Source: Acidobacteriaceae bacterium (lineage in GTDB: Bacteria > Acidobacteriota > Terriglobia > Terriglobales > Acidobacteriaceae). From it: a stretch of 32,900 nucleotides of DNA. Location of the stretch: the NCBI GenBank assembly GCA_025355505.1, contig JANXZM010000055.1, positions 1 to 32,900 on the forward strand, given 5' to 3'. The stretch's first letter is position 1; the number at the start of each line of letters is the position of its first letter. The translations under genes were made by a program, and so were the position numbers. Below are positions 4,789 through 28,816 of the stretch, in pieces. The notes below the pieces were generated by a model. The model searched no databases and was not told the DNA's origin. It was given only the letters and a program-made list of their open reading frames with translations.

Positions 4789-5147
4789 CGGGATCGCTGT
4801 GCATCCATGTGCAAGGGCAATTCTCAGTCCAAAACTGTTTTTGGGGCCAAAGTGCGTTGCTGGTTGATTCTAAATCAGAAGGCGGCGGCTACACCTACTT
4901 GGATGCGTGTCAAAGGATGGACGGGGTGTGGGTGGCGGGTCAGTTTCTGAGTAGGCAGTGATACGGGCACAATTCGCCTGCGTGAGGCAACGGACCACAT
5001 CTCGGAGCTTGTTGAAAGGCCTAAACCTCGTCATTCGGGGGAACAACCGTAACCAGGAACCTGCTGTCATCCTTGGATTTCTTGCCACGGCGGATTTCAA
5101 CCCCCAGCCAATGTCGCGCGCCCGCTCACATATAATGATGTACATTG
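4789..5147. other. divergent intergenic region between PBP operon and kinase
   Basis: This region of about 360 bp lies between two divergently read genes and must hold both promoters. I see no credible small gene, repeat or RNA structure in it. The only motif I can name is the TATAAT box at 5131-5136, next to the kinase start. Confidence 0.5.
5131..5136 (+). promoter_or_regulatory. TATAAT -10 box of the kinase gene
   Basis: A perfect TATAAT ends 11 nt before the ATG at 5148, so the predicted 5' leader would be about 0-5 nt. No Shine-Dalgarno precedes the start. No clear TTGACA-like -35 is seen at 16-18 bp spacing. Confidence 0.4.
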
Positions 5148-12955: not shown

Positions 12956-15900
12956 TTACTTCCCTGCCGGAACGTACAGCGCTGGTATGTTCTGCTTGTT
13001 CACCATCTCATTCAGCGCCGGCAAGTCCTTCGACATCAGCTCGCGGTACTGCGCCAGCAGCGGTTGCGCCTGTTTCTCCAGATCGTCGAAGACCTCGTAC
13101 TGCTGCTTCGTGGGCTCGGCATCGCCGACCTCCACGCTGCCGAGCAGTGAGTGCAGCCGCTCATCGATCAGCACTGGATAGTTCAGGTTCGACTCCGAAC
13201 TCTTCGAGTTCACCTGGAGCAACTGCGACTCCAGATCGTAACTCTTCTTGTCGAAGTCTTTGGTGGCCGCAACCAGCGAAGTGTAGCGCGAGGCATCGCC
13301 AAAACGCTCGTCGCCAAAACGCCGGCTCAGTCCGCGAGTCTGCGTGCGCACTTCGCGGATGGCTCCGATGGCCTCGTGAATCTCCGTTACTTGCGCCACG
13401 ATTTTGCGACCCAACGCACTCTGCTTTTGCAGGTCGTCGTTCGACGCCTTGGTCCGCGGATCCGCTTTCAACTCCAGCGGCGCCGTATACGATTTTCCTT
13501 CCGCCGTCAGTCGCACCTGGTAGGCGCCCGGCGGCACCATCGGTCCGCGATTGCGGAATTCCGCGCCGGGCTCCCCCGCCAGCGGAACCGGTCCCTGCAA
13601 ACGCAAGTCCCAGGCAAATCGGTTCACTCCCACATCGGCCGGAATCTTTTCGTCGGGAGGCGTCTGGTCGGGCCACTCTGGCGGTGTATCCGCTTCCTTC
13701 TTTTCTTCGTTGGAATAGCGCCGCGCAACTTTCCCCGACGCATCCAGAAATTCGAGCGTTACTACGCCCTTCGGCGCGGTTGGGAGGTAGTAATAAACAA
13801 TCGCACCCGTCGGTGGATTCTTTCCCACCGGCTGCCGCCGCTCGAAGAAATCAGGCCAGCGCATGCGATAGGTTAATCGCGGCTTGTAAAGCACGGCTTC
13901 AGCCGCCGCTTGCGCCGTTGCTGCACGAAGCGGTGTAAGGTCGTCCAGAATCCAGAACGCGCGCCCATGCGTCGCCACCACCAGATCGTCATTTTTCACG
14001 ACCAGGTCGTGGATCGGAGAGTTCGGCAAATTCAGTTGCAGCGATTGCCAGTTCGCTCCACCATCGAACGAAACATAAATCCCAGTCTCCGTGCCCGCGT
14101 ACAAAAGATTCTTCCGCACCGGATCTTCGCGCACGGCGTGCGTGTAAGCGCCATCCGGAATACCGCTGGTGATCTTGGTCCACGTCTTACCGAAATCCGT
14201 AGTCTTGAAAATATACGGCTTAAAGTCATCCAGCTTGTGGGTGTCGATCGCCGCATATGCCGTGCCGGCATCATGTGGCGAAGCCTCAATCAGGCTGACC
14301 ATGCTCCACTCCGGAATTCCCTTAGGAGTTACGTTCGTCCAGTTCTTGCCACCATCGCGCGAAACGTGAATCAAGCCATCATCGGTTCCCGCCCACAGCA
14401 AGTCCTTCTGCACGGGCGACTCCGCGACGGTGAACACAATGTCGTAATACTCGACCGAAGTGTTGTCCTTGGTCAGCGGCCCGCCGGAAGAAACCTGCTT
14501 GCTCTTGTCGTTGCGCGTCAGATCTGGACTGATCGCCGTCCAACTCTTGCCTTCGTCGGTAGTCTTGAAGACGCGCTCGCCGGTCGTGTAGATAACATTC
14601 GCGTCGTGCGGCGAGATCACAATCGGATGCGTCCATCCCAGCCGGTACTTCAAGTCGCCGACGCCGTGGCCTGAGCTCTCCATCGGCCAAACCGAGACGT
14701 CCTGTTCCTGGTTGCTGCGGCGATCGAGACGGGTGACAGCACCTTCTCCGGAACCGGCATAAATAATGTGTGAGTCTCGCGGATCGGGCGCAATGTAGCC
14801 GCTCTCTCCACCGCCCGCATCGAACCAATGCTGGCGTCCGACATAGCCGTCGTCGGTGCGGCTCGCGATGCCAATCGTCGAGTTGTCCTGTTGCGCGCCG
14901 TACACTTTGTAAAGAAAGTCATTGTCCGCGGCCACGTGATAAAACTGCGCGGTCGGCTGATTGTACTGCGTGGACCAACTCTTGCCGCCATCGACCGAGA
15001 CCGTCGCCCCGCCGTCATTCCCGTTGATCATGCGATCCGGATTCTGCGGATCGATCCAGAAACCGTGATGATCGCCATGTGGCGCCGGCAGCAGATTCAG
15101 TGTCTTGCCCCCATCGGTCGAGCGAAACACTCCGGTGTTCAGCATGTAAACCGTGTCCACGCTCTTCGGATCCGCAAAAATATGCGTGAAGTACCACGCG
15201 CGCTGCGTCAGCCGCTGGTCTTCGTTGACGCGTGACCAGCTTTCGCCGCCGTCATCGGAACGATACAACCCACTCTGCTTCGACTCGATGAGCGCGTACA
15301 CGCGATTTGAGTCGGCGCCCGAAACGCTGACCCCGATGCGCCCCAGAATGCCCTCCGGCAGGCCTTTCGCTTCCAGGTGCTTCCAGGAATTGCCCCCATC
15401 GGTCGAGCGGTACAATCCACTGCCCGGACCGCCGCTTTCGAGACTCCATGGCGTGCGCTGGATCTGATATAACGCGGCGAACATCACATTGGAATTATGT
15501 GGATCGACCGCGAGATCGATGGCGCCTGACTTGTCGTCTTTGTAAAGAATCTTCTCCCAGGTCTTGCCCCCATCGGTGGTGCGATAAATGCCGCGATCCG
15601 GATTCGGTCCGTACGCATGACCGAGCGCGGCGATCAGCACATGGTCGGAGTTGCGCGGATCAATCCAAACGCGCGCAATGTGCTGTGTGTTGTTCAATCC
15701 AATGTGCTGCCAAGTCTTGCCACCATCGGTCGTTTTGTAGACTCCATCGCCATACGAGATATTGCCGCGCAGGCAGGACTCGCCCGTCCCCACATAGATG
15801 ACATTCGGGTTCGATTCCGACACAGCAATCGCGCCGATCGACGAGATCATGCTCTTGTCGGAAATCGGCTGCCAGTTCACGCCACCATCGATGGTGCGCC

Positions 15901-16105
15901 ACACGCCTCCGGCAACGCCGCCGAAATAGTAGGTGAAGGGGCTGCCGGGAATTCCCGTCACGGCCAGCACGCGGCCGCCGCGATACGGCCCAATGTCGCG
16001 CCACTTCATCCCCTTGAACTGCGCTTCGTTATACGACTGGGCCGCCGCCGAGATTCCAAGCGCTGCAACCAGCACACACCATCCCACCAAACCGCGGACA
16101 TTCAT
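12956..16105 (-). CDS. large secreted Vps10/BNR-repeat (sortilin-like) beta-propeller protein
   Basis: This 1049-residue exported protein starts at ATG 16105, which has a strong GGAGG ribosome-binding site (complement of 16111-16115) and opens a signal peptide (MNVRGLVGWCVLVAALGISA). The N-terminal two thirds carry many BNR/Asp-box-like blades (IYRTTDGGKTWEKI, LYRSTDGGNSWKHL, VFRSTDGGKTLNLL, VFKTTDEGKSWTAI, IHVSRDGGKNWTNV), which is the Vps10/sialidase-type propeller. The last third has a beta-sandwich-like part (GVNRFAWDLRLQGPVPLAG) and a helical tail (about 900-1040). It is often annotated as a glycosyl hydrolase, but I see no catalytic residues to support that, so binding or surface scaffolding is as likely. 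It belongs to a family expanded in Acidobacteriota. The upstream 100 bp contain a four-unit 13-bp tandem repeat (16166-16217) that may regulate it. Confidence 0.9.
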   Translation of the reverse strand: MNVRGLVGWCVLVAALGISAAAQSYNEAQFKGMKWRDIGPYRGGRVLAVTGIPGSPFTYYFGGVAGGVWRTIDGGVNWQPISDKSMISSIGAIAVSESNPNVIYVGTGESCLRGNISYGDGVYKTTDGGKTWQHIGLNNTQHIARVWIDPRNSDHVLIAALGHAYGPNPDRGIYRTTDGGKTWEKILYKDDKSGAIDLAVDPHNSNVMFAALYQIQRTPWSLESGGPGSGLYRSTDGGNSWKHLEAKGLPEGILGRIGVSVSGADSNRVYALIESKQSGLYRSDDGGESWSRVNEDQRLTQRAWYFTHIFADPKSVDTVYMLNTGVFRSTDGGKTLNLLPAPHGDHHGFWIDPQNPDRMINGNDGGATVSVDGGKSWSTQYNQPTAQFYHVAADNDFLYKVYGAQQDNSTIGIASRTDDGYVGRQHWFDAGGGESGYIAPDPRDSHIIYAGSGEGAVTRLDRRSNQEQDVSVWPMESSGHGVGDLKYRLGWTHPIVISPHDANVIYTTGERVFKTTDEGKSWTAISPDLTRNDKSKQVSSGGPLTKDNTSVEYYDIVFTVAESPVQKDLLWAGTDDGLIHVSRDGGKNWTNVTPKGIPEWSMVSLIEASPHDAGTAYAAIDTHKLDDFKPYIFKTTDFGKTWTKITSGIPDGAYTHAVREDPVRKNLLYAGTETGIYVSFDGGANWQSLQLNLPNSPIHDLVVKNDDLVVATHGRAFWILDDLTPLRAATAQAAAEAVLYKPRLTYRMRWPDFFERRQPVGKNPPTGAIVYYYLPTAPKGVVTLEFLDASGKVARRYSNEEKKEADTPPEWPDQTPPDEKIPADVGVNRFAWDLRLQGPVPLAGEPGAEFRNRGPMVPPGAYQVRLTAEGKSYTAPLELKADPRTKASNDDLQKQSALGRKIVAQVTEIHEAIGAIREVRTQTRGLSRRFGDERFGDASRYTSLVAATKDFDKKSYDLESQLLQVNSKSSESNLNYPVLIDERLHSLLGSVEVGDAEPTKQQYEVFDDLEKQAQPLLAQYRELMSKDLPALNEMVNKQNIPALYVPAGK

Positions 16106-16165
16106 AGACGCCTCCAAAAAAATGATCTCTGAGAAGTAGACCGACAATGATAACCCATATGTTGG

Positions 16166-16217
16166 CGCTAAACTTTAAGGCTAATCTTTGACGCTAATTT
16201 TTAACGCTAATTTTCGA
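16166..16217. repeat. four tandem 13-bp repeats upstream of the Vps10 gene
   Basis: The units are 16166-16178 CGCTAAACTTTAA, 16179-16191 GGCTAATCTTTGA, 16192-16204 CGCTAATTTTTAA and 16205-16217 CGCTAATTTTCGA. The array covers the final codons and stop of the upstream esterase gene and lies 61-112 bp before the Vps10 start. Its regular AT-rich phasing could be stacked regulator sites or simple slippage of the gene end. Confidence 0.65.
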
Positions 16218-17058
16218 TGCGATCCGAATAGAGAAACTTCAGCGCTTCCGGAAGCCGTGCCGCCCAGGCCGATTCGGTGTGCGTAGCGCCTTCTTCGATG
16301 CGAACCTTCAGCCGTTGTTCGTCCAGTCCAGCCGCGCGCAGAATGGCTTCCAGTTCGCGGACGTCTTCCACCGTCTTGGCATCCTTTCCCGCATTTCCCG
16401 TTTCCCTCGTCCCCATCCCCAGGTAAGTGCGCGCCGGCCAACTGCTGAATCCGCGGCTCTCGTCCAGAATCTTCCGGTTGGCCACGAACAGAGACGGGCT
16501 CTCGATCAACAATCGTCCAAACACTCCCGGCACCGCCAACTGCGTGTATAACGAGATTAGTCCCCCGAGAGAAGAGCCGCCCAATCCCGTATTCTCCGGC
16601 CCCTTTAACACCGAATAACGCTCTTCGATCAGCGGCATCACTTCACGCTGCAAAAACTCCGGATAGCATTTTCCCTTCGCGTTTAAAACTTTGGGATCTT
16701 TTGACTTGTACGGAATGTACTCGCAAGCCCGGTGTTTTGTGTTGTCGATACCGACGATAATAAGCGGAGGAATTTTCTCTTCGGCGATCAACCGCGCCGC
16801 GGTCTCGCCCACTTGCCAGTGCACTCCGGCAAAGGCCGTTACCGGATCAAATAGATTCTGTCCGTCATTCAAATAAAGGACCGGATATCGAGTCGCGCCC
16901 CATCCGTCGTAATCGTCAGGCAGCCAAACCCGCACCAGTCGCGTGTTCCCGAAGATACGGCTGCTAAGCTCATGCGACCACAGGTTGCCGGTCGAAACCG
17001 GCAGGGCAGCGCTGGCGACAGGCTTTAGTTTTAGTTTTCGCGTTGTGGGCCGGGACAT
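16207..17058 (-). CDS. alpha/beta-hydrolase esterase (putative esterase D / enterochelin-esterase-like)
   Basis: This 283-residue hydrolase has the esterase-D pattern: an N-terminal strand region (RVWLPDDYDGWGATRYPVLYLNDGQNLF), the nucleophile elbow GSSLG with likely catalytic Ser163, and a C-terminal catalytic His in GATHTESAW. It resembles the alpha/beta hydrolases that cleave acyl esters or siderophore lactones, but the substrate is unknown. ATG 17058 is preferred: the longer open frame to 17178 adds 40 basic residues with no family similarity. I see no signal peptide from this start, so it is probably cytoplasmic. It precedes the Vps10 gene on the same strand by about 100 bp; its last codons and TAG are part of the 13-bp tandem array. 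Confidence 0.8.
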   Translation of the reverse strand: MSRPTTRKLKLKPVASAALPVSTGNLWSHELSSRIFGNTRLVRVWLPDDYDGWGATRYPVLYLNDGQNLFDPVTAFAGVHWQVGETAARLIAEEKIPPLIIVGIDNTKHRACEYIPYKSKDPKVLNAKGKCYPEFLQREVMPLIEERYSVLKGPENTGLGGSSLGGLISLYTQLAVPGVFGRLLIESPSLFVANRKILDESRGFSSWPARTYLGMGTRETGNAGKDAKTVEDVRELEAILRAAGLDEQRLKVRIEEGATHTESAWAARLPEALKFLYSDRIEN

Positions 17059-17228
17059 GGGGTAAATCGAGTTCTCAGCTTTCAGCTTTTTGGATTTCGG
17101 GAACCGCGGCGTTTTCCGGCAACCCATCCGAACGAGGCGCGGAAGAACCCAGCCCCGGAGGGACGACCCAGTCCTCACGCAAACTCTTTAACTCCTGAGG
17201 GCCAGAACATCACGCCTTTTGGCGCAAA

Positions 17229-17666
17229 CTACCGGCTACTGTCTCGTTTCCACCAGATCACCGCCGCCAACATCGTTGCCGTCGCTATCAACGCCAGCGA
17301 ACTCAAACACAAAATGCACCAGACTCCAAGCACGCGCGCTTCAACAAAGGTCAGATACAAAGCAAACGCCAGACCCGCCGCAGCGCCACTGAAAAGCATT
17401 GCCGGAGTCTCGCGCCGCTCGCGATACACCGTCGCCAGCCCCGCCAGCGCCGCGTACCCGAGTATCCCAATCAGCGCGACCGGAATTCCCAGGAGCGACG
17501 AATATTCACTGCGGTTCACGATGTCGCAATTGAACGTTGCTCCGATATCGCAGTACGCCGTCTTTGAGGTCGCGTAATGATGCTGCAGCGACACCGACGA
17601 CACCGCGATTCCGCACACCGCCAGAATGGCGATCAGGCTCATCAGACGCTTCGTCAAACCGGTCAC
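17229..17666 (-). CDS. VKOR-family quinone-linked disulfide oxidase
   Basis: This integral membrane protein of about 145 residues has four or five helices. Vitamin K epoxide reductase homologues pass electrons from a thioredoxin-like partner to quinone and so drive disulfide formation, replacing DsbB. The expected cysteines are present: loop pair Cys39 and Cys47 (YCDIGATFNC) and the active-site pair Cys117/Cys120 (WCILC). The conserved SEYSSLLGIPVALIG segment follows the loop. I favour GTG 17664-17666, which overlaps the TGA of the upstream thioredoxin gene (GTGA, translational coupling). An alternative GTG at 17678 would add four residues. The adjoining thioredoxin-like gene is its obvious redox partner. 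Confidence 0.88.
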   Translation of the reverse strand: MTGLTKRLMSLIAILAVCGIAVSSVSLQHHYATSKTAYCDIGATFNCDIVNRSEYSSLLGIPVALIGILGYAALAGLATVYRERRETPAMLFSGAAAGLAFALYLTFVEARVLGVWCILCLSSLALIATATMLAAVIWWKRDSSR

Positions 17667-18094
17667 TGCAGCGCGCACCCCGTCCGATCACTCAGCTCTT
17701 GCAGCGTGAAATTATGCTCCACTCGTTCGCCCGTGGGCGGAAACTGCCAGGTGGGATAGTGCTTGACGTCTTCGTCTTTGCAAACCTGTGACTGCCCGTG
17801 TGTTTCGCCCTTGATGCCGCACTCCACGTAAGGAGCGTACTCAAACGATGCCCCAAATTTTTCTTTTTGCTCCACGCAATGCGGGCACCACCACGCCCCG
17901 TACATCTTCACGCCGCGCTCCGTCAGACAGCGCGCGAACGCATCGTGCTTGTGCTGGCTGCGGTTGCCAAGATAATAGACTAGTCCGAACGCGGCCACCA
18001 CCAGCACGGCATAGATCGCGATGCGCCCCCAATTCCGGCTCAACCTTTTGATGCCCAGTTTTTCGTTTCGCCGTTCTCTTCGTTCTTGCGACAT
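17663..18094 (-). CDS. membrane-anchored thioredoxin-like protein, VKOR partner
   Basis: This 143-residue protein has a basic N-terminus, one membrane anchor (about 24-42) and a periplasmic thioredoxin-fold domain. The redox site is WCPHC (Cys70/Cys73), the cis-Pro loop is YPTW (Pro114), and a second cysteine pair (Cys92, Cys105) matches that in the thioredoxin domain fused to VKOR in cyanobacteria. It probably oxidises secreted proteins and is re-oxidised by the VKOR encoded immediately downstream with a 4-bp overlap. The domains are therefore encoded as two genes, thioredoxin first. A TATAAG box lies 6 nt before the ATG. Confidence 0.88.
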   Translation of the reverse strand: MSQERRERRNEKLGIKRLSRNWGRIAIYAVLVVAAFGLVYYLGNRSQHKHDAFARCLTERGVKMYGAWWCPHCVEQKEKFGASFEYAPYVECGIKGETHGQSQVCKDEDVKHYPTWQFPPTGERVEHNFTLQELSDRTGCALQ

Positions 18095-18144: not shown

Positions 18145-19083
18145 TTAAACCACCACCCGGAGCGCCGAGGGCAGCACTTCGATCGCCCGGCACTCCAGCG
18201 TCAGCACCTCGCCGTCCACCATTACATCCACCGGGCCGTTCAGTTGAAACTCGACGCGCCGAACCTTCTGCCGCTCCGCCAGCGGATGCCGAGTGTGCGT
18301 GCCATCATAAAGCGTTGCCAGGTTCCGGATCAGCCCCAGCCGCCCAATCGGCCCCCACCGCACATACTCAATCAATCCGTCATCGGTGACCGCGTCGGGC
18401 GCGATCATCATTGTGCCGCCCGTGAACTTGCTGTTGTTAAACGTCAAAAACAGGCAGCGCCGCGAGTCAAACTCTCGCTGCCCCTCCAACCGCACCGGAA
18501 ACGGGCGCCGATCGAGCCGCACCAGAGAAAGAAAAATAGACAGCACGTACCCAAATTGCCCAAGCCCCAGAAACCGCCGATGCCGCAACGCCGCCACATC
18601 CGCCGCAAACCCCACGCTCAGCAAATTCGTGTAGTAGATGGCTCCGTCTTTGTGCTCCAGCCGCAAAACATCACAAGGCCGTGAACGCCGCGCCTCCAAC
18701 GCCTCCAGCGCGTGCTCTAAACCACTCTTACTGGAAGCCCCATCCGCGAAATCCTTTAGAAAAGAATTGCCGGTTCCAAGCGGAAGAAACCCAAGCGTTG
18801 CGACTGCGTCCTCCGGCGTCTCTGCTCCTGTTACCGTGGAATCCGGAAACAGACCGTTGACGATTTCGTACGAAGTCCCATCTCCACCCACCGCCAGAAA
18901 CTTTCGATAGCCGCGCCCATAGGCCTCGCGAGCAATCCGAGTGGCCTCGCCAGCCGCGCTCGTCTCCGCTGTCTCCAGCACAATTCCCGCCGCCCGCAGG
19001 CGATCGAGCGCCGCAGCCACGCCCTCGCGGCAACGCCCGCCGCCCGCCGCCGGATTGATAATGGCAAAAAAAGTTTCGTTCAC
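18145..19083 (-). CDS. diacylglycerol kinase / lipid kinase (YegS/DgkB family)
   Basis: This 312-residue cytoplasmic lipid kinase carries the DAGK catalytic motif GGDGT (66-70), the N-terminal INPAAGGG loop (9-16), and PLGTGNSFLKD (101-111), the counterpart of the usual GTGNDFAR. The C-terminal half has the second YegS-like beta-sandwich lobe (about 140-312). It phosphorylates a lipid hydroxyl, such as diacylglycerol, sphingoid base or another long-chain alcohol, using ATP. The start is GTG at 19083. It is last in the co-oriented lipid-gene run, 76 bp after the AMP-forming ligase, so a role in making the phosphorylated lipid product is plausible but inferred. Confidence 0.88.
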   Translation of the reverse strand: MNETFFAIINPAAGGGRCREGVAAALDRLRAAGIVLETAETSAAGEATRIAREAYGRGYRKFLAVGGDGTSYEIVNGLFPDSTVTGAETPEDAVATLGFLPLGTGNSFLKDFADGASSKSGLEHALEALEARRSRPCDVLRLEHKDGAIYYTNLLSVGFAADVAALRHRRFLGLGQFGYVLSIFLSLVRLDRRPFPVRLEGQREFDSRRCLFLTFNNSKFTGGTMMIAPDAVTDDGLIEYVRWGPIGRLGLIRNLATLYDGTHTRHPLAERQKVRRVEFQLNGPVDVMVDGEVLTLECRAIEVLPSALRVVV

Positions 19084-19159
19084 GTTTAAGGTTTGGTTCT
19101 TAGCTCGCAGCCCGTAACTAGCTGCAATCCCCCGAGTGACTGATAGCTGACAGCTGAAC

Positions 19160-20875
19160 CTATATCCCCACTACTCCCGCCCGCGCCGCGTCAACCCCGA
19201 TCTCCGCCGCCAATTCTCCGCGCTTGATCTTCAGCGACGCCGTCCGCGGAAAATCTTTCTCCCACACCAGATACCCACCCACGCGCTTGAAGTCGGCCAG
19301 CCGCCGGTTCCGCTCCACCATCTCCTCGCGCAACTTATCGTCGAACTGCTGATTCTGCTCCAGCCGCAACACCAGCACCAGCATCTCGTTACCCAGCGTC
19401 TTCTGCGGCCACAAATAATTCGCCGCAAACATGCAGAATTCCTTCACCGGCAGACCATCAAACACCGCTTCAATATCCTCGGGATAAATGTTCTTCCCGC
19501 CCTCGGTGACAATCATATTTTTCTTGCGCCCAACAAGTTGCAGGTGTCCGCGCCCATCAACATCAAAGCGCCCCTGATCGCCCGTCAGCAACCAGCCCTC
19601 GACGATCGTCTGCGCCGTCTGTTCCGGGTCATCCAGATAATGCGACATGACCGCGCGGCTCCGCACCGCCACTTCCCCAATCCCGTCGCCATCCGGATTC
19701 AGCAGGCGGACCTCGGTTCCAGGCAGCGGCTTGCCCACCGTATCGGCGCGAAATGGTTTCAGATCGTTGAGCGTCACTGCCGTGCAAGCTTCCGTCAGCC
19801 CGTATCCGCACGTCACTGGAATTCCAAGATCGTAGAAAAACTGCAACGTCGAAGGTTCCGTAAATGCTCCGCCCACAATCAACGCCCGCAGTTCTCCGCC
19901 AAACGCCCTGTGCACTTGCGGCAGCAGACGACGGCTGAACTCCACATGCGGACGTGCTCGCGTCAGCATTTTGTTCAGCCCAATCAAGCGGTCAAGTATC
20001 ATCCGCTTTGCGGGCTTCAGTTCAGCAAACTTCGCTCGCAGTCCACGTTCCAAATTCTTCAGCACCATCGGCACCAGGCTCACATAGGTGATGCGGTAGC
20101 GCACAAACGCGTCGCGCACAAACTCCGGACGCAGCGTCCGCAGATGAACCACGCAAGCTCCGCACACAAACGGCCCGACAAATCCCACCATGAAATCAAT
20201 CGCGTGATTGGTGGGCAGAATACTCAAATAGCGCACGCCCGGCCAAAATGGATACCACGCCGTCAACGAAGCGCACTGCTCCAGATAACTGTCGTGCGTG
20301 AGCACGCATCCCTTCGGACGCCCGCCCGTCCCCGACGAATAGACGATGCAGGCCGTGTCCGCGCGCTGCCGCGTCGCAAACTGCGGCTCGCCCTTCCGCT
20401 TGAATTCTTCCCAGCGGTAAGCGCCGCGCAAGTCCGCGCCCGCCGGCGCTTCCGTCACCAGCACAATCTCAACCGTAAGTTTCGAGAACTCCGGTGACTG
20501 TGTGATCGCCCGCCACAAGTAGTATTCGACAACCAGAAACCGCGCCTTCGAATGCGCCAGCAGTTGCAGATGCTCGACCGCGCTCAATTTGTAATCCAGC
20601 GGAACCAGAACGCCGCCACAGAAAAAGATCGAGTATGCCGAAATCAGCCACTTCGACTGATTCGTCATGATGATCGCCGCCCGGTCCCCCGCCTTGAAAT
20701 CGGCGTCCTCAAGCGCGCGGCAAAGCGGCCGCGCCAGTTCCCTAAAGTCAGAGTAGGTTAACCGCGCCTTTTCGCGGTCACGATCAGCTTCAATCAGGCA
20801 GGTTTCATTGGGCCAGCGCTCCAGCGCGTCTTTGAGCGCGGCACCCAGGCTGGCATATTGACGGAGGTCAAGCAT
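19160..20875 (-). CDS. AMP-forming acyl-CoA/acyl-ACP synthetase (ligase 1)
   Basis: This 571-residue ANL-superfamily enzyme activates a carboxylic acid as its AMP ester and transfers it to a thiol (CoA or a phosphopantetheine arm). The phosphate loop is [11 protein letters not shown] (179-189). The A5-type motif [11 protein letters not shown], the hinge [26 protein letters not shown] and the C-terminal lysine region [11 protein letters not shown] are all present, so it should be active. It follows the ACP gene by 30 bp, which suggests that the ACP could be its acceptor (fatty acyl-ACP ligase behaviour), although the usual CoA function is not excluded. It is only distantly related to the second ligase of the cluster. 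Confidence 0.88.
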
Positions 20876-20905
20876 TTAATGTTTTATCTCACCACGGAGA
20901 CACGG

Positions 20906-21172
20906 CTAAAGCCGCGCCTGAATCCTATTCGCGAGCGTACGAAAATCCGACACGCCCTGCAGTTCATAGTCTGGCAACTCGATGCGGAAGTGATGCTCCA
21001 GTCGCGTCAGCAAATCGAGCGCCTGCAGGCTATCAATGCCAAGCGTCTTAAAAAAGTCGTCGTCAGGCGTGAGCTTTTCCCGCGGCACCTTAAAATGCGA
21101 AGCGGCAAGATTCAGAACTTCATCGAGCGTGTGATCAGTCGTAGGCGCTGACATAAGCGTGATGTCCTTCAT
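20906..21172 (-). CDS. free-standing acyl carrier protein
   Basis: This 88-residue acidic four-helix carrier has the phosphopantetheine site GIDSLQALDLL (Ser48). It is not likely to be the housekeeping fatty-acid AcpP: the attachment motif is IDSLQ where AcpP has DSLD, and it sits among lipid-modification genes, not fab genes. It probably carries the acyl chain handled by the neighbouring ligases, hydratase and reductase. An internal ATG at 21154 (MSAPTTDH) is an alternative start, with AAGGA a little upstream. The stop codon falls in a small CGGC-TAAA-GCCG hairpin (20903-20914). Confidence 0.88.
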   Translation of the reverse strand: MKDITLMSAPTTDHTLDEVLNLAASHFKVPREKLTPDDDFFKTLGIDSLQALDLLTRLEHHFRIELPDYELQGVSDFRTLANRIQARL

Positions 21173-21196
21173 ATTACCGAGTTACAGATTACACAT

Positions 21197-22000
21197 TTAC
21201 GGCAGATACGGCTGCACTCCCTCATTCTCCACAAACTTCCGCAGCCCTTCTTCGACGGCTGGACGCGAATAAAGGTCGCAGAAAATATCGATCTCCCGCT
21301 TCAACTCCTCATGTGGGATCGGCTTCACGAACTCCTTCGCCGCTGCTGTCGTCCGCCGGTCGAATTTTCCAACCTGGCTGGCCGTAGCTCGCGCCACCCG
21401 CAGCGCCTCGCCTTCGGCCGCAATCTGGCTCACCAGCCCGATCTGCTGCGCTTTCATCACATTGAAGCTGCGTCCGGTCAGCAGCAGATCGCGCACCACC
21501 GCATTGCCCACATCCCGCTTCAGACGCGGGATCCCACCGAATCCCGGGATCAGCCCGAGCCGCAGTTCCGGAAAACAAAATCGCGCCATCCGGTCCGCAA
21601 TCATAATGTCGCAAACCAGCGCCAGCTCGAACCCGCCGCCAAACGTCACCCCATGCACTGCCGCGATCGTCGTCAGCGGCGCCGCATCGAGCGCGTTCAT
21701 CACGGCGTGAATGCGCTCCAGGAATTCCCGCACTCCGCGCAAGGCTGCGCCTTTTTCCATCGCTCGACCGCGCTGAAACAACTCGCGCAAATCCGCTCCC
21801 GCTGAAAATCCCGCCTTCAACGTCGAATGGATAATCAACGCATGCGCTTCATTCGACAGCCCGGGCAGAGCTGCCACAAATTTCTCCAACTCCTCCAGCG
21901 TGCGCGTCCCAATCTCGTTGCACGGGTCGCGATGCAGCGCGAGTTCAATCGCCCCATTCACCTTCTGCCAGGAAAGCGTCTGCCCTTTGAAGTCGTTCAT
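21197..22000 (-). CDS. enoyl-CoA hydratase/isomerase family protein
   Basis: This 267-residue crotonase-fold enzyme has the oxyanion-hole segments AGFSAGADL (63-71) and GVTFGGGFELAL (117-128), and both acid/base glutamates of hydratases at the expected places, Glu125 and Glu145 (FPELRLGL). Hydration or isomerisation of an acyl thioester is therefore likely. It overlaps the upstream ligase gene by 4 bp (ATGA), a sign of coupling, and is followed after 24 bp by the ACP gene. Its substrate may be an ACP- or CoA-bound chain made in the cluster; ordinary beta-oxidation use cannot be excluded. Confidence 0.88.
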   Translation of the reverse strand: MNDFKGQTLSWQKVNGAIELALHRDPCNEIGTRTLEELEKFVAALPGLSNEAHALIIHSTLKAGFSAGADLRELFQRGRAMEKGAALRGVREFLERIHAVMNALDAAPLTTIAAVHGVTFGGGFELALVCDIMIADRMARFCFPELRLGLIPGFGGIPRLKRDVGNAVVRDLLLTGRSFNVMKAQQIGLVSQIAAEGEALRVARATASQVGKFDRRTTAAAKEFVKPIPHEELKREIDIFCDLYSRPAVEEGLRKFVENEGVQPYLP

Positions 22001-23682
22001 GCCGTCTTCGCCGCCTGATACATCGCGTCAATTTCGTTTCGAAAGCGCTCTGCAATCAGGTCCCGCTTCAGCTTTCCATTCGCCGTCAACAGCCCGCTCT
22101 CAATGGTGAACGCTTCCTCCACCAGATGAAACCCTCGTACCTGTTTGTAATGCGGAAGGCCCGGATTCACAATGTCCAGCGCCGCCTGCGTTTTTTCGCC
22201 ACTCACTTTGCCCGTAACCAGCGCCGCCAGATATCCGCGTCCATTGCCTACGACCACCACCTGAATTGCGCCCGGCAACTCGTGCAATATCTTATCCTCA
22301 ATCGGCTCCGGCGCAATGTTATGTCCCGATCCGAGAATAATCAGGTTCTTGATGCGGCCGACAATCTTCCAGTTTCCGTTTGCGTCCACTTCGCCCTGAT
22401 CGCCGGTATGAAACCAGCCATCGCGCAGTACTTTCGCTGTTTCCTCCGGACGACTCCAGTATCCCGGAAAAATATTCGGCCCGCGCACCACGATCTCCGC
22501 ATTCTCCGCGATCTTCATTTCCACGCCCGAAATCGGTGGCCCCGCGCGCCCCGGAATGATCGGCGCATCCGGATCATCCATGGTACAGATCGCCGTCGTC
22601 TCGGTCAGGCCGTACACCTGCAAAACCGGGACGCCCAGCATCATAAAGAACAACTGTGTTTCTAAACTTAGCGGCGCCGAGCCACAAATCAGCGCGCGCA
22701 GTTTGCCGCCGATCATCTTCTTTCGAATCGTGGGAAATACGAGCCGATTTGCCAGCCCGAGCCAGAACCCGTCTCCGGCGCGGGATTTCCCCTCCTGCCG
22801 CCGCACCCATGCGCCCTTTGCCTTGGTGTACACCTTCAACGGAAATCCACCCGTCTTCCAAAGTTGCTCGTCGACCGCTTTGCGCATGCGTTCGAGCAGC
22901 GCGGGAACATTCAGAAAATACTCCGGCGCTGCCATGCGCATTTCCGCAGCAATCTTCCCCAGATCCGTATTCAATGTCAGCTTGTTGCCGCGCAACATAC
23001 AGGTCAGCATCATGATCCACGAGCCCGCAAAGCAAAACGGCAGGTAATGAAACACGGCGTCCTGTCCCGGACGCGTCTTCGCCGGATCACCCAGTATCGT
23101 GCGATCCCGCATAAGCTGATCCAGCCGCCCCGAAGTGCAGCCCAGCATGTGCCCGACGTTGCCCGCGTTTAGCATCACACCCTTCGCCTCGCCTGACGTG
23201 CCTGACGTATAGATGATCGTCACCACATCTCCTTCTGCAACCGTCAGCGCTGGATTCTCCACCGGCCCGCGCCCTGCCGTGAACACATTTTCAAAACAGA
23301 AATGCGGCGGAGCTTCAGGCCACGCCTCGACGATCGCATCGGCCAGCGACTGTTCGCCGCAAGCGATCACCGAGGGCCAGCAATCCTTCATCATCGCGAC
23401 CAGTTCGGCCGGCGACTGCCGCGCATACAGCGGCACCGCCGTCAGCCCCTCCGCCATGACGGCTAGATCCATCGCCACCCACTGCATTGAGTTATGCGCC
23501 AACAGCGCGCAGCGGTCGCCCTTCTTCAGCCGCAGCCGACGCAGATAAGCCCGCGCCACTTGCACCTGAGCCAGCAACTGCCGCGCTGTAAGCGGAACTG
23601 GCTGCCCGTCGCGCAGTTCCTGCAGCACGACGGCATCGCCGCTGCGCTCCAGCCTCGCAACAATCTGTTCAAGAAATGACAT
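21997..23682 (-). CDS. AMP-forming long-chain acyl-CoA synthetase (ligase 2)
   Basis: This 561-residue ANL enzyme has the phosphate loop YTSGTSGEAKG (158-168), the motif VYGLTETTAIC, the hinge TGDQGEVDANGNWKIVGR and the C-terminal catalytic lysine region TANGKLKRD. The linker region and overall layout fit FadD15/long-chain acyl-CoA synthetases. It provides activated fatty acyl groups. It heads the four-gene block ligase 2, hydratase, ACP, ligase 1, and is separated from the pyruvyl transferase upstream by 135 bp containing an inverted repeat, so a second promoter is possible there. Confidence 0.9.
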   Translation of the reverse strand: MSFLEQIVARLERSGDAVVLQELRDGQPVPLTARQLLAQVQVARAYLRRLRLKKGDRCALLAHNSMQWVAMDLAVMAEGLTAVPLYARQSPAELVAMMKDCWPSVIACGEQSLADAIVEAWPEAPPHFCFENVFTAGRGPVENPALTVAEGDVVTIIYTSGTSGEAKGVMLNAGNVGHMLGCTSGRLDQLMRDRTILGDPAKTRPGQDAVFHYLPFCFAGSWIMMLTCMLRGNKLTLNTDLGKIAAEMRMAAPEYFLNVPALLERMRKAVDEQLWKTGGFPLKVYTKAKGAWVRRQEGKSRAGDGFWLGLANRLVFPTIRKKMIGGKLRALICGSAPLSLETQLFFMMLGVPVLQVYGLTETTAICTMDDPDAPIIPGRAGPPISGVEMKIAENAEIVVRGPNIFPGYWSRPEETAKVLRDGWFHTGDQGEVDANGNWKIVGRIKNLIILGSGHNIAPEPIEDKILHELPGAIQVVVVGNGRGYLAALVTGKVSGEKTQAALDIVNPGLPHYKQVRGFHLVEEAFTIESGLLTANGKLKRDLIAERFRNEIDAMYQAAKTA

Positions 23683-23739
23683 GCGACTGTGATCGACCAG
23701 GAGTACCGATGTTGCAAACTACCTCTCGGGATTTCCTCA

Positions 23740-23802
23740 GTGAACCTTCGTGTCCTTTGCGGTTTCCGCACTTCTTTAACCACAGAGGACACGAAAGTTC
23801 AC
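23740..23802. repeat. inverted repeat between pyruvyl transferase and ligase 2 genes
   Basis: Arms 23740-23761 and 23781-23802 are complementary at 19 of 22 positions, with a 19-nt loop. The arm contains CCACAGAGGACACGAAAG, a relative of motifs at 1272-1300, 20890 and 29393. The hairpin could attenuate or stabilise the message inside the lipid-gene run. Confidence 0.6.
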
Positions 23803-23817
23803 GAATAAAAACCCAAC

Positions 23818-25227
23818 CTACCCGTACGCCTTCACTAACTCTCGCAACCCATCGCCCATCGGCGGCAGATAATCCTCCCAGCTCCATTCTCCGCGACGAG
23901 TAGGAAACTCCGGATACCGCCGCTGCACTTCTTCTTCAAAATACACGCCCATGCGCGCCATCAATTTCAAATTCTTCACCACCGTCCGCGCGATCCCGTC
24001 GGCAATCCGCTCACCGTCGCGATCCAGAATTTCGAGTGCCGCCAGAGTTCGCGCCTCCAGGTCCGCATCATCCACATTCATCAGCAACTCCTGATGCCCG
24101 CGCTCGTTCATCAGATTCCGTATGCGCTCATCCATCGTGATCCCCGCCGACGCCACCAGCGCCGGCATCGAAGTCACAATCCCGTGATAACGCGAAGACA
24201 CCATCATGCGGCACGCCCGCAGGATACTAACCATTTGGTACATGTTGTAATCGTCCGAAGTCAGCACCGGAACTCCGCCCAGCTTCTCCGAGATACGACC
24301 GCACGGCCGAGCATCCATGCGCTCGGTCGCGGCCAGGATCACGAACACATTTTTCTTCTGGCGGAACGCGGCCACCGCATTGGCAATCGAATTCAGATAA
24401 TGTTCGTAGGCGCGATCCGCCTTTGGCCCCGCGTGATGAAAGTAGGGCCCGCGGTAGTGGCTCTCTTTGTATGCGCCCGTCAGGCTGTACAGCGCGGCCT
24501 TCGCCACCGACGCCTTCACCGGCCACTCAAACGGATTGATCGGACACAACACCAGCACCGGCGTCTTGCCATCCCAACCCACATCGCGCAGCGCCTTCCG
24601 CCCATACTCCGCACCCAGCGGCTCAAATGTCCATGCCGTGTCCGTGCCCAGTTCCGTTGGCACGCCGAGCTCGCGCAGAATTTTCCGCGACTCATCATTG
24701 CGCGTGATCACCAGCGAATTCCTGCAATAGCGTCCGCACATCTTTGCGACCAGCGGATCCATATGCCCCGCTTCGGCGCCGTAGCCGATCGACAATTTGT
24801 TCTCCGCCGCCGCAATGCCCAGCGAGCCGATCATCATCGTCGCCAATGCATTCGCAAATTTCGATTTGAACATCGAACCTTCACACGCCACAACGCCATG
24901 ATGTTTCGGCACTTCCCTGGCCAGGAACGGCGGGAAAATATCCGGCAGCCGTACCTGCGACGTGCCTTCGAAATAGCCGCGCGACCGGTCAAAATTAAAC
25001 GTCATCATGCTGAGATCGACATTCTCCGGCCCAAGAATCCGCCGGATTTGCCGCAGCATCTCCTCCACGCGCACATCCGACCCGGTGTTGCGCGTGCCGT
25101 TGTAGCCCGCAAACAGCAGCTTCAGTTTCTCGCCCGGCTGCCATGGATCCCGCTTGCCCATCATCCACTGAACCTTCTTGCCCTCGATGATGCTGGATAC
25201 CCACGCTTCCAGAACGAAGTCCATCAT
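23818..25227 (-). CDS. polysaccharide pyruvyl transferase family protein
   Basis: This 469-residue protein of the PS_pyruv_trans family (CsaB/WcaK-like) resembles enzymes that add a pyruvate ketal to a sugar from phosphoenolpyruvate. It has the family's N-terminal [12 protein letters not shown] motif (compare GNxGDE), a two-lobed GT-B-like layout, and the conserved [15 protein letters not shown] motif with the catalytic-region histidine. ATG 25227 is chosen because it forms an ATGA overlap with the SDR gene and has GGAGG nine bases upstream; a longer frame to 25263 would overlap the neighbour needlessly. In this setting the acceptor may be the sugar of a glycolipid, but pyruvylation itself is inferred from the family. 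Confidence 0.82.
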
Positions 25228-26363
25228 GCGGCAGACCCTCCTGCCCTCGTGCTCTCCGGCCACGCTTGATACGGGTATGCAAAATTGTGCTCGCGGCTGA
25301 ACCGGAGCAGCGGAAAACTGTATTGCGAAAACGGCGTTGGCTTGCGTCCCATCTCCGCTGTAACCCGAGTGTTATCGAACACGGTATTCCAGGTCAGGTA
25401 CGGCATAAAGACCTTCATCAGTGCCGCAGCGTGCCCCACCGGTCCTTTGCGGTTCGCGAGCGTGTTGACGATGGAGCTGAACGGCTTTTCGAGGATCGGC
25501 ACAAACACCGGCCCGCGCCGGTTCTGCTCGGCTGCCAGTGCCTTGGTCAATTCTTGAAACGACTGCGCATCGTTGCCGGAAGAAAGATGATAGGTATCGT
25601 GCTCGGGATTCGCCTTCATGTGCAAAGTCGAAATCGCATCGGCCACGAAGTCCACATTCACAATGTCAATCTTGTCATGCGGACGAAACGGCAGCACCGG
25701 CAATCCCGCCAGGAACACGAACGACCGCACCATGTCGAACTGCGTCGTCTGCGGATAGCGGCTGTCTCCCAACACGATACTCGGACGAAAAATCGTCAGC
25801 GGCACGTCCGGCAGCAATTCGCGCACCATGTGTTCACAGAATTTTTTCGTCCGCGCATAGGGATCGTAATCGGAACGCCCCCATTCAATCGAGCGGTCCT
25901 CTACAACAACTTCGTGGCTGCGTTTTCCCGCCACCGCCACCGTGCTCACATTCGAAAACCGCCTCAGCCCGTGGTAATACTGCGATCGCCGCGCCAACTG
26001 CACCACTTCGAGCGTCCCGCGCAGATTCACATTCAAACAATTTTTTTCCGACTTTCGATTCAACGAAGCTGCGCAGTGGATCACCGAATCGGTGGTGTGC
26101 ACGAGCCGGTCGTAATCGCTGGCTTCAAGCCCGAACTGCGGCGACGTGAGATCGCCGCGAAAGATCCGGATCTTCGCCTGCAAGTAGTCGTAGAACTTGG
26201 GAAACGGCAGGTGCAACTGCAAGGCATTCCAAAGACGCAGTTCCGCGTCACGCGGATCGCGGCCGCGCACCAGCAGATTCAAGGTCGCATCATGCTGGTC
26301 GAGCAGATTCGCGGCGACATGCGCGCCGATGTACCCGGTCCCACCGGTCAGGAATATCGCCAC
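25224..26363 (-). CDS. extended SDR / thioester-reductase-like NAD(P)-dependent protein
   Basis: This 379-residue protein has a Rossmann N-terminus TGGTGYIG (6-13), a downstream [10 protein letters not shown] serine region and the catalytic YARTK (Tyr-x-x-x-Lys). The overall pattern fits the NAD_binding_4 (male-sterility / thioester reductase) or epimerase branch of extended SDRs. It could reduce an acyl thioester or act on a nucleotide sugar. It begins at GTG 26363 with GGAG four bases before, overlaps the end of the reductase fusion by 16 bp, and overlaps the pyruvyl transferase start by 4 bp, so the three are translationally coupled. Confidence 0.85.
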
Positions 26364-28816
26364 GTTGCTCCGTTTGTCCCCGTCTTCATAGCATCGCGAT
26401 TTTCGCTCTTCGTTGGCGGCGCAGTCGGCGCCGGCGGCATCTGCAGCACACGCGGCGCACGCGCTTCCAGCGGACGCCCCTCAATCAGCGGATACGTCCA
26501 CCGCCGCAATGCCGGAATATGAATGTTGATCCAATACTCCCACCAGTCCAGCCCCGCCGTGTCATATCCGAAACTTTCTTTCTCTTCGGGCGTCAGAGCC
26601 TGCGACAGCTTCTCTACATTATCCGCGATAAAATCGTGTTCGTTGTGCAGAATAAAGGGCTCAAACAGGCCCACTAATTTCTCCACGCGCTCGAGGTTGC
26701 GCTCGGTTTTTGCCAGCGGCTTCTTCATCGGCAGCGGAGACATCACGCGCTGAATCGACTTGATAATCATTTTTTGCGCCGGCGCCGACATGCGGTTATA
26801 ACGCTCCTTCGAAACCGGAATCGCGTCCATTCGCAACCGGAGCCAGTATTCAAGACCTTCCTGAGCCCGATAGTGTCGCCGATGTCCGAGCGATGTCAAC
26901 TCAATCGACCGCCCCATGTCGCAAGGATTCGTGACCGATGTAGCCAGTTGATACAACGGATCGTGCCGCCGCTCCACCAGCGCCGCGCCAATCAGCGTCA
27001 TGCCCGCGCACACCGCGTCCACCGGAATAATATCCAGCCGCTTGCGTTCATTCGAAGGCAGTTGCCGGAACGCCGTCCCCAGCAGATACGACAGCGACGC
27101 TGAAGTATTGATTCCCTCATTCCACCCGCGAAACGGCTTCGTCACCGAGGTCTCAACAATCGCCGGACGAACGATCGCAATCGGCAGTCCCGCGCCATGT
27201 TTCGCAATCATGGATTCCGCCAGGTATTTCGTGTAGGTGTAAGTATTCGGCCATCCCAACTCCTTCGCGCGCCGAGTGCCTTCTTCCGTAAGATACTTTT
27301 TCAGCCAGCGCACCCGGTTCTTGCGGATTTGGTTTTCCAGCGCCTGCCCGCTCAGCCCTTTCGCCGCATGCGCTTTCTCCAACGCCTGCTTCTTCAGTTC
27401 CTCGGTGACTTGCGGCCCTTCCACCCGCGCTTCCGCCGACTCCACCAGTTCATGCAGGCGATGCCATTCTTCTTCCGCGTCGAAGTCCTTCAATCCCGCC
27501 GGCGTGTAATTCAGACGCACTCGCTCACTCACGCGCCCATCGCGCTGTCCCGCCACATAACAAGTCGAAAGATGCAGCAACGCCGCGTGATCCGATGCGC
27601 GAATGAATTCGATCAGGTGATGCGTCGAATCCACATTCACCGCCAACGCGTCCCGCAGATCGGGATTGAAATCCGTTAACCCCGAGCTGTTGATGATCAG
27701 ATCCAGATCCTTGCTCAGCCGCGCTGCCGTCTCAGTATCCAGTCCCACACCGGGCTGCGAAACGTCGCCCTCCACGACCTCAATTTTTTCCGCCAGCAGA
27801 GCGCCCAGCCGATCGCCGTATTTCTCAAACAAGGGATCAAAAACCGGCGAGCCTTCAATCATTTTCTCGAAGCGCGTCTGCGCTGGACTCGACTTCTGCC
27901 GCCGGATCAGCAGATAGAGTTTCCCAATCTCCGGCAGATCCATCAAGGTATTGGCCAGCCACACCTTGCCGATAAATCCCGTGACGCCGATCAGCATCAC
28001 GCGCTTTCCGCCCAGCGCCTTACGCACCGAAAACGGCGCTGGATGCCGTGTTTCATCGAAGTACACAATCGGTCGAACCCGCGGCGCGTCCACCCGCACG
28101 GCCGGCACAATTGCCGATGCCAGCGCTTTGGGACCGCGCAATCCGAGAGCGCGCACCCATCGTGCCGGACTTTGCTGCCCGTCCGGACCCGCTTCGCGAA
28201 TCCGCGCAAATATTCCGCGCGGGCGAATCACCGGACTCAGCAGCCGTCCGGTCGCAACTCCATCGCGGAAATCAAGGCGGTTCGCAATCATCCACCGTAC
28301 TCCCAAATGCCGTGCCAGTGGCCACATCACGTGCTCCAGCCCTTGGCTCACCAGCACCACATCCACACCCGTGGCCTGCAGCGCCTTCAGGTGCCGCACT
28401 CCTTCTTCTTTGAGCAGCGGCTTCAGCTTGTATTCGAATTCCTCTTCGCCCAGCAGATCGAGGCGGTCGCGCGTAATCCCGCGCAGCACGGCGTGAACGA
28501 TTCGAGTCGCGGCAACGCGGTTTGCCGCATACAAAAATGGCCGCAGCAACGCCATCAAGAGCACCAGGCTGCGGCGTGCCGCCCGCGCGATAAATGTCTG
28601 GCTGTTCCAGGTAAAAAAGGCGATCGGACGAACCGTGGTCAGTTCCAGCAGACTTCCCTCCACCCGCCAGTAAACGGGCGACGAAGGCCGCGGATGAGGA
28701 GGAGGCGGAGCAACGACCGGAGCAACGCGCGAGGCCGACGGCGCGCCTGCTGCCGACGCGCTGGCGTCAAGTGATGTCCGCGCCCGCTCTTCTTCGAGAT
28801 TGTTCACAGGTTCCAC
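26348..28816 (-). CDS. fusion of degenerate HAD domain and fatty-acyl reductase (FAR)
   Basis: This 822-residue protein begins with a Pro/Ala-rich leader (about 10-48), then a HAD-IB-like region (about 49-240), where the strand that should hold DxDGT reads RVEGSLLEL. Both catalytic aspartates are lost, so phosphatase activity is unlikely, although the helical cap (FYLxxRP-like, [18 protein letters not shown]) and [17 protein letters not shown] are kept. From 270 on is a long-chain fatty-acyl reductase: NAD(P) motif GVTGFIG (277-283), STCYVAG serine region (417-423), YTYTK (Tyr526, Lys530), and an alpha-helical C-terminal FAR_C-like tail. Such enzymes turn acyl-CoA or acyl-ACP into aldehyde or alcohol with NADPH. 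The start is taken as GTG 28816; a second GTG three codons later is possible. It is the first gene of the co-oriented cluster. Confidence 0.85.

Follow-up and report, generated by a model that had tools for sequence, protein, structure and literature searches.

The window analysed here is a stretch of 32,900 nt from an Acidobacteriaceae bacterium (GCA_025355505.1, contig JANXZM010000055.1, positions 1-32,900) that carries a cluster of eight genes, referred to as A to H, all present as open reading frames (ORFs) of one orientation on the (-) strand and running from 28816 to 18145. Families were assigned with Pfam and NCBIfam. Gene A (26348-28816; 822 aa from a GTG, with the conserved part of the protein starting around residue 45) joins a degenerate ElbB-like HAD domain to a fatty-acyl reductase (NAD_binding_4 and Sterile domains). 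It is followed by B (25224-26363; 379 aa), a stand-alone short-chain dehydrogenase/reductase (SDR) of the thioester-reductase type (NAD_binding_4); C (23818-25227), a PS_pyruv_trans protein (PF04230) with a predicted GT-B-like fold; D (21997-23682; 561 aa) and G (19160-20875; 571 aa), two AMP-forming ligases (AMP-binding); E (21197-22000; 267 aa), a crotonase (ECH_1); F (20906-21172; 88 aa), an acyl carrier protein (ACP; PP-binding); and H (18145-19083; 312 aa), a lipid kinase of the YegS/diacylglycerol kinase type (DAGK_cat/YegS_C). The initial annotation of this DNA had read most of these families in the same or a closely similar way, and it rightly reported eight co-oriented genes without a ketosynthase, none being found among A-H; it had missed the HAD domain of A and had taken B for an extended SDR rather than one of the thioester-reductase type.

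The genes are tightly packed. A and B overlap by 16 bp and D and E by 4 bp, while gaps of 135, 24, 30 and 76 bp separate C from D, E from F, F from G and G from H, respectively. The ORF of C can be extended to a GTG at 25263, giving 481 aa and an overlap of 40 bp with B; the alignment of C proteins is firmly conserved only from approximately the ATG at 25227 onward, 36 bases past the GTG, and this ATG overlaps the stop codon of B by 4 bp (ATGA). When C is made to start at the position aligned with the GTG of the window, it overlaps B by 32–46 bases in all 85 loci compared; with the ATG as the start, the two genes lie at most about 10 bases apart. Given the ATG start, the figures agree with the three overlaps of 4-16 bp and the gaps of 24-135 bp reported earlier.

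Alignment of orthologues that span 85% or more of the query revealed that the residues which we take to be catalytic are kept in the proteins of the cluster. The YxxxK motif is present in 69 of 69 reductase domains of A and 77 of 77 B proteins, both catalytic-type Glu residues in 70/70 crotonases (E), the serine of the ACP in 72/72 F proteins and GGDGT in 62/62 kinases (H), and the C-terminal Lys of the ligases is retained in every D (72/72, that of the window included) and G (60/60) aligned. The HAD domain of A has taken another course: its motif I reads W-R-V/A-E-G-S in 69/69 proteins, with Asp replaced by Arg, where five aligned ElbB-type proteins have D-x-D/E-G-T, and the [ST]DSxSD motif present in those five is absent from nine A proteins in the same alignment. 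On these grounds the domain looks like a pseudo-phosphatase that may have been retained for structure or binding. A subset of 21 A proteins was also aligned. By sequence and by predicted structure (model with a mean predicted local distance difference test score, pLDDT, of 76), the reductase of A is nearest to 7eoz, the fatty-acyl reductase DPW of rice, which presumably acts on acyl-ACP. The nearest solved structures to B are R domains, that of MxaA first and that of a carboxylic acid reductase also among them; R domains are described as releasing aldehydes or alcohols from carrier proteins (PMC12783407). The presence of two ligases and two thioester reductases in one cluster hints that two different carboxylates are activated and reduced.

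The initial annotation had proposed a dedicated lipid pathway whose gene order should recur in related genomes, and such synteny was found. A profile of C built from seven sequences and searched against a species-level genome collection retrieved 294 relatives; the best 80 of these, hereafter the named loci, are all from Acidobacteriota and all from metagenome-assembled genomes (MAGs) by title, the titles including Terriglobia, Acidobacteriaceae, Acidobacteriales and Candidatus Sulfotelmatobacter and many of them mentioning bog, fen, palsa or soil depth. Thirty-three named loci have too little flanking sequence to hold the whole cluster; in the remaining 47, A-H is complete (47/47), and the order A-B-C-D-E-F-G-H is kept in the 80 loci as far as each extends, with the exception of local inversions in L059 and L114. 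In L037, a 555-aa frame separating A from B yielded neither a Pfam match nor a homologue in the other loci and was treated as non-coding. Conservation of the cluster is far above what chance would produce. Gene content, gene order and co-conservation are direct observations, as are the families, the intact motifs and the loss of the HAD motifs.

In the family of the window (f1), 110 of 398 genomes have C, as have 57 of the 256 good ones. An even draw across the phylum, with at most four candidates scored per genome, found a match to C in 14 of 396 genomes, 13 of them strong (families f1, f37, f60, f70 and f84) and one weak (f59), and in f70 the gene was present in 10/11 genomes, including 6/6 good ones. 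One genome, G062, encodes a second C-like protein (L161:8988-10319; 35% identical), around which the 19 kb retrieved held none of the other cluster genes. Over 22 sets, each of the 28 gene pairs gave correlated orthologue distances (r 0.60–0.89), which is also expected from vertical descent and shows only that the genes do not come from different sources.

Outside the family of the window, the set breaks into A-B-C-D, F-G-H, usually accompanied by a gene for a PlsC-type acyltransferase, and E alone. In the f84 genomes G686 and G693 (L157, L158, L183), A-B-C-D is divergent from F-G-H-PlsC; in G132 and G062 the latter lies on a separate contig, and in f60 and f37 the modules are on different contigs or approximately 28 kb apart. 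E of G734 starts some 28 kb past D and is followed by F, G, H and PlsC, the last ending about 35 kb past D, and in G757 (f70) the eight genes and PlsC form a single stretch. E is away from A-B-C-D in five of seven non-f1 cluster genomes (G132, G686, G693, G734 and G744), that of G744 sitting on a 4-kb contig of its own and so perhaps still linked; all seven genomes searched contain an E orthologue of 63–70% identity, as compared to a best match of only 36–43% in two genomes of the ElbD type discussed below. In the fetched stretches of L173, L174 and L176, from three genomes, E is away from the other cluster genes at 62-68% identity. PlsC lies directly 3' of H in eight of ten non-f1 genomes (G235, G757, G132, G734, G062, G686, G693 and G744); in G643 none was found within 7.6 kb of H, and the stretch from G658 does not cover that place. 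Among 89 loci searched, PlsC was matched only in the three H-bearing loci from other families. C stays with A, B and D and not with the kinase/acyltransferase module. Of 14 genomes examined, drawn from five families (four genomes in f1 and ten outside it), 13 yielded all eight genes; in the remaining one, G744, A was not seen because the contig ends beside B. That the set splits in other families and is nonetheless found entire in 13/14 genomes argues for a single pathway.

The C protein of the window scores 33.1 bits against PF04230 (gathering score, 25.3), and the family was matched by each of 24 C proteins taken as a subset for alignment, with E values of up to 0.01. An R-x-H pair is invariant in 85/85 sequences, and a further Arg upstream is invariant in the aligned subset. 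CsaB is reported to bind phosphoenolpyruvate (PEP) through R148, H308 and K328, with R306 added by docking (PMC10435577). The R-x-H pair of C resembles R306/H308 of CsaB and the upstream Arg also looks equivalent, the residues having been matched by eye. The AlphaFold model of C (mean pLDDT 80) resembles UDP-GlcNAc 2-epimerases, the match to 9cm8_A (Z 18.4, 318 aligned residues, root-mean-square deviation 3.9) being tied with the first one listed (Z 18.9), and the top eight Foldseek hits all have glycosyltransferase titles (TM-scores 0.34–0.55); we take the matched folds to be of the GT-B type. Pvg1p was likened by its authors to the GT-B enzyme MshA (PMC4872226), a likeness that fits the fold matches of C and is not specific. 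Sequence searches of the PDB with C and its profile returned nothing useful and found neither CsaB nor Pvg1p; Pvg1p was not among the best 50 matches listed in either structure comparison, which carries no weight.

From these data, we infer the substrates, the reactions and the product. Our reading, to which we would give an even chance, is that A-H form one pathway for an alkyl or ether phospholipid derived from a fatty alcohol, the chain being probably ether-linked. The pathway would consist of two modules and one enzyme: A-B-C-D, which would make and process the ether; F-G-H, together with PlsC in most genomes outside f1, which would supply ACP-bound chains, phosphorylate a lipid alcohol and acylate it; and E. 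G would load a fatty acid onto the ACP F, and A would reduce the chain to a fatty alcohol. C might then transfer enolpyruvate from PEP to the alcohol to yield a 2-alkoxyacrylate, whose new carboxylate D would activate as a thioester; E would add water across the double bond to produce a 2-O-alkyl-3-hydroxypropionyl thioester (that is, a 2-O-alkylglyceroyl thioester), or else isomerise its substrate, and B would reduce the thioester to 2-O-alkylglycerol, to be phosphorylated by H and then acylated by PlsC. This formation of a PEP-derived ether lipid by C, D, E, B and H is a tentative proposal, and the odds are against it in this exact form; among schemes that employ all the genes it is the most economical, and we think it the most likely version of the pathway. 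The glycerol carbon would in that case originate from PEP and not from glycerol phosphate, and the route would dispense with AGPS, Ger and ElbD and lead to sn-2 alkyl ethers. Such ethers are known in bacteria as 2-O-monoalkylglycerol ethers (2-O-MAGEs; PMC5552659).

The nearest point of comparison for A is the elb operon of Myxococcus xanthus, elbA–E, in which ElbD is described as carrying fatty-acyl reductase (FAR)-like, acyl-CoA synthetase (ACS), ACP and acyltransferase (AT) domains, ElbB as a HAD protein and ElbE as an SDR, the function of ElbC being unknown (PMC9131029). In Acidobacteriota, the ElbB, ElbC, ElbD and ElbE labels used here denote domain content and position rather than a comparison with M. 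xanthus sequences. A survey of 247 genomes, again with at most four candidates scored in each, found 28 of the ElbD type (a reductase match inside a frame of more than 1400 aa), seven of the type of the window and none with both; in the genome of the window, all NAD_binding_4 matches besides A and B are in frames of 329–370 aa. A matches ElbD-type proteins (E values down to 1e-95; 28-38% identity), and the stretch N[RH]L[ED]F...ATGR is common to its HAD domain and the five ElbB-type proteins. A HAD protein, a Lar_N protein and an SDR surround ElbD-type genes. An acidobacterial ElbC-type query found no match in 89 loci at 1e-6, and neither did the single ElbE-type query used, from L039. B has weak matches to SDRs, namely the one that adjoins the ElbD-type gene of L038 (2e-7, 23%) and those in L042 and L043 (8e-11 and 3e-10); in L038 and L043 its match to the reductase domain is the stronger one. 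On the strength of these weak matches B may still correspond to ElbE, against which stand the empty ElbE-type search and the R domains as its closest solved structures. The best match of G is an ElbD-type protein in G086 and G025; in the reverse search, one ElbD-type ligase domain preferred another ligase over G in G000, G084 and G132. The idea that PlsC and G are detached ElbD domains was not supported by the best-match tests and was dropped. Membership of the cluster in the Elb system was likewise rejected, the ElbD fusion being absent, the ElbB motifs lost and ElbC unmatched; the cluster has one clear component, A, in common with Elb, and this gene alone gives clear support to the Elb link drawn in the initial annotation.

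Other loci encountered in this comparison have features of their own. The proteins at the ElbC position, adjoining ElbD-type or related reductase genes, are Lar_N (lactate racemase N-terminal) proteins (L038:7393-9006, L039:7456-9054 and L042:1223-3106). A third type of locus (L040, L042 and L043) combines a HAD protein, a reductase and a YegS-type lipid kinase with no linked AMP ligase match; L042 and L043 also have an SDR, and L042 a Lar_N protein. Clusters of the elbD type have been reported from sponge symbionts in Acidobacteriota and Poribacteria (PMC9426513), and Solibacter usitatus, a producer of branched glycerol dialkyl glycerol tetraethers (brGDGTs), is said to lack ElbD (PMC10087280).

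A number of points weigh against an ether lipid pathway of the kind proposed. The spacing of the genes is looser outside f1, those of f70 being up to several kb apart and H of G658 (f70) lying 8.6 kb beyond G, and loci of the window's own family have no linked PlsC. With C in only 110 of 398 genomes of that family, the trait is a patchy one; the 80 named loci are all MAGs by title, and no biochemistry of any carrier was found. D is not nearest to the ligase domain of ElbD-type proteins, G fails the reverse best-match test in three of five genomes and PlsC is not specially near the ElbD-type acyltransferase; the comparison with ElbD is therefore shown for A only. Many sugar-nucleotide enzymes are among the structural matches of C, which may therefore have a glycosyltransferase-like activity, and the substrate of E and B may be the chain rather than a C3 unit. 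Among the papers listed in the literature searches, none was seen to deal with an enolpyruvyl ether of a fatty alcohol, as judged by title or by the absence of the word enolpyruvyl. CsaB and Pvg1p are reported to pyruvylate saccharides, forming ketals (PMC10435577, PMC4872226).

These last reports are what speaks for a lipid of the fatty-alcohol or ether kind whose head group is a pyruvylated sugar or glycerol and in which C would be a late, ketal-forming pyruvyltransferase, and the R-x-H pair that C was seen by eye to share with CsaB and Pvg1p is in keeping with it. The initial annotation favoured a pyruvylated sugar. Searches for glycosyltransferase families found none among A-H or the neighbouring genes I-L, C itself being a PF04230 match with a GT-B-like fold, and a pyruvylated sugar is therefore not supported; moreover, C travels with the reductases and ligase D rather than with the kinase/acyltransferase module, and D, E and B (the second ligase, the crotonase and the second reductase) would be left idle. 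We consider a head group of this kind unlikely. The fusion in A of an ElbB-like domain with an ElbD-type reductase, the ACP, ligase and, outside f1, PlsC nearby, and the absence of genomes with both types among the 247 surveyed, as expected of alternatives, could also be explained by a variant of Elb that retains ElbD's own chemistry, still unknown, on separate genes. The missing counterpart of ElbC in the 89 loci, the empty search with one ElbE-type query, the lost HAD motifs, the lack of a specific relationship of D, G and PlsC to ElbD, and C and E, for which the published description of the Elb operon has no role, make such a variant doubtful.

A lipid without an ether, such as a modified fatty acid or an alkyl phosphate, would assign D and E to the chain itself, by 3-hydroxylation or a double-bond shift, and C and H to its decoration. 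The 4-bp overlap of D and E in the window and the possibility that the lipid kinase phosphorylates an alcohol directly would suit this explanation. It gives no reason for C and B to remain linked to A and D where the rest have moved, and it seems to us quite improbable. Ligases and crotonases are common in beta-oxidation. Chance neighbours from beta-oxidation or general fatty-acid salvage would hardly show synteny in 47 of 47 loci, the acyl-CoA dehydrogenase, 3-hydroxyacyl-CoA dehydrogenase and thiolase families were all missing from A-H, and FAR, ACP and PF04230 genes are foreign to beta-oxidation. We regard this origin as extremely unlikely.

Downstream of H, and unmentioned in the initial annotation as was the HAD domain of A, three further genes on the (-) strand accompany the cluster in most loci of the group to which the window belongs. 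I (17663-18094) encodes a membrane-anchored thioredoxin-like protein, assigned by eye from its CxxC motif as it has no Pfam match; J (17229-17678), overlapping I by 16 bp, encodes a VKOR protein; and K (16207-17178) a putative esterase. I adjoins H, and J adjoins I, in 56 loci, L034 of the same family being an exception. I and J likely form a split pair for disulfide-bond formation, and neither was found beside the clusters of other families examined; for these two reasons they probably stand outside the lipid pathway. Beyond K in some loci lies gene L (12956-16147 in the window), which encodes a 1063-aa sortilin/BNR-repeat protein and was also seen near F-G-H in L139 and A-B-C-D in L159. The window further encodes a serine/threonine kinase fused to PD40 beta-propeller repeats (5145-7820) and a class A penicillin-binding protein with transglycosylase and transpeptidase domains (2182-4788). 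Scans for promoters and terminators gave no sites above those in shuffled sequence, and no Rfam families or tRNAs were found in the window.

In Acidobacteriota, only some genomes of subdivision 4 are reported to carry elb or agps, the pathway of ether-lipid synthesis being called unclear (PMC11868695), and the use of brGDGTs as proxies of temperature and pH is described as hampered by poor knowledge of their producers (PMC13274423). The eight genes, from an uncultured soil bacterium, probably encode a conserved and so far undescribed route from fatty acids to unusual alcohol-based, perhaps ether-linked, lipids of the membrane; no description of the cluster was found in the literature searched, most subscription papers being out of reach. 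Given that the cluster is compact and its steps are testable, it offers a direct experimental handle, and the route from PEP, if true, would be a new way to form the ether bond of a membrane lipid.

Compared to known systems, the cluster resembles the elb operon of M. xanthus and the acidobacterial elbD loci in its HAD (ElbB-like) domain and its fatty-acyl reductase, both related to theirs, and in its AMP ligase and ACP, joined outside f1 by an acyltransferase. It differs from them in that the fused FAR-ACS-ACP-AT protein is missing, as is a counterpart of ElbC (LarA-like in the loci seen), in that its HAD domain is degenerate and fused to the reductase, and in the addition of a PF04230 protein, a second ligase, a crotonase, a reductase of the R-domain type and a lipid kinase. 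Ger/PlsA is likewise a bacterial route to alkyl ethers. Ger is described as a multidomain protein (PMC13274423), whereas the genome of the window (96% complete) has a lone PF01869 match in a 425-aa frame and no multidomain PlsA-like protein with PF01869 domains. With CsaB and Pvg1p, C shares a Pfam family over its C-terminal half, the R-x-H pair and a GT-B-like fold; it departs from them in its length of approximately 470 aa, its weak score, the lack of a sugar pathway nearby and its place, which in each of the 47 loci long enough for the cluster adjoins acyl reductase and ligase genes. The membership of CsaB and Pvg1p in PF04230 is taken for granted here. MurA and MurB, whose folds are presumably unrelated to that of C, offer an analogy only: there, too, the carbon of PEP becomes an ether-bearing C3 unit, and the proposed route through C would hydrate this unit where MurB, as we understand it, reduces it.

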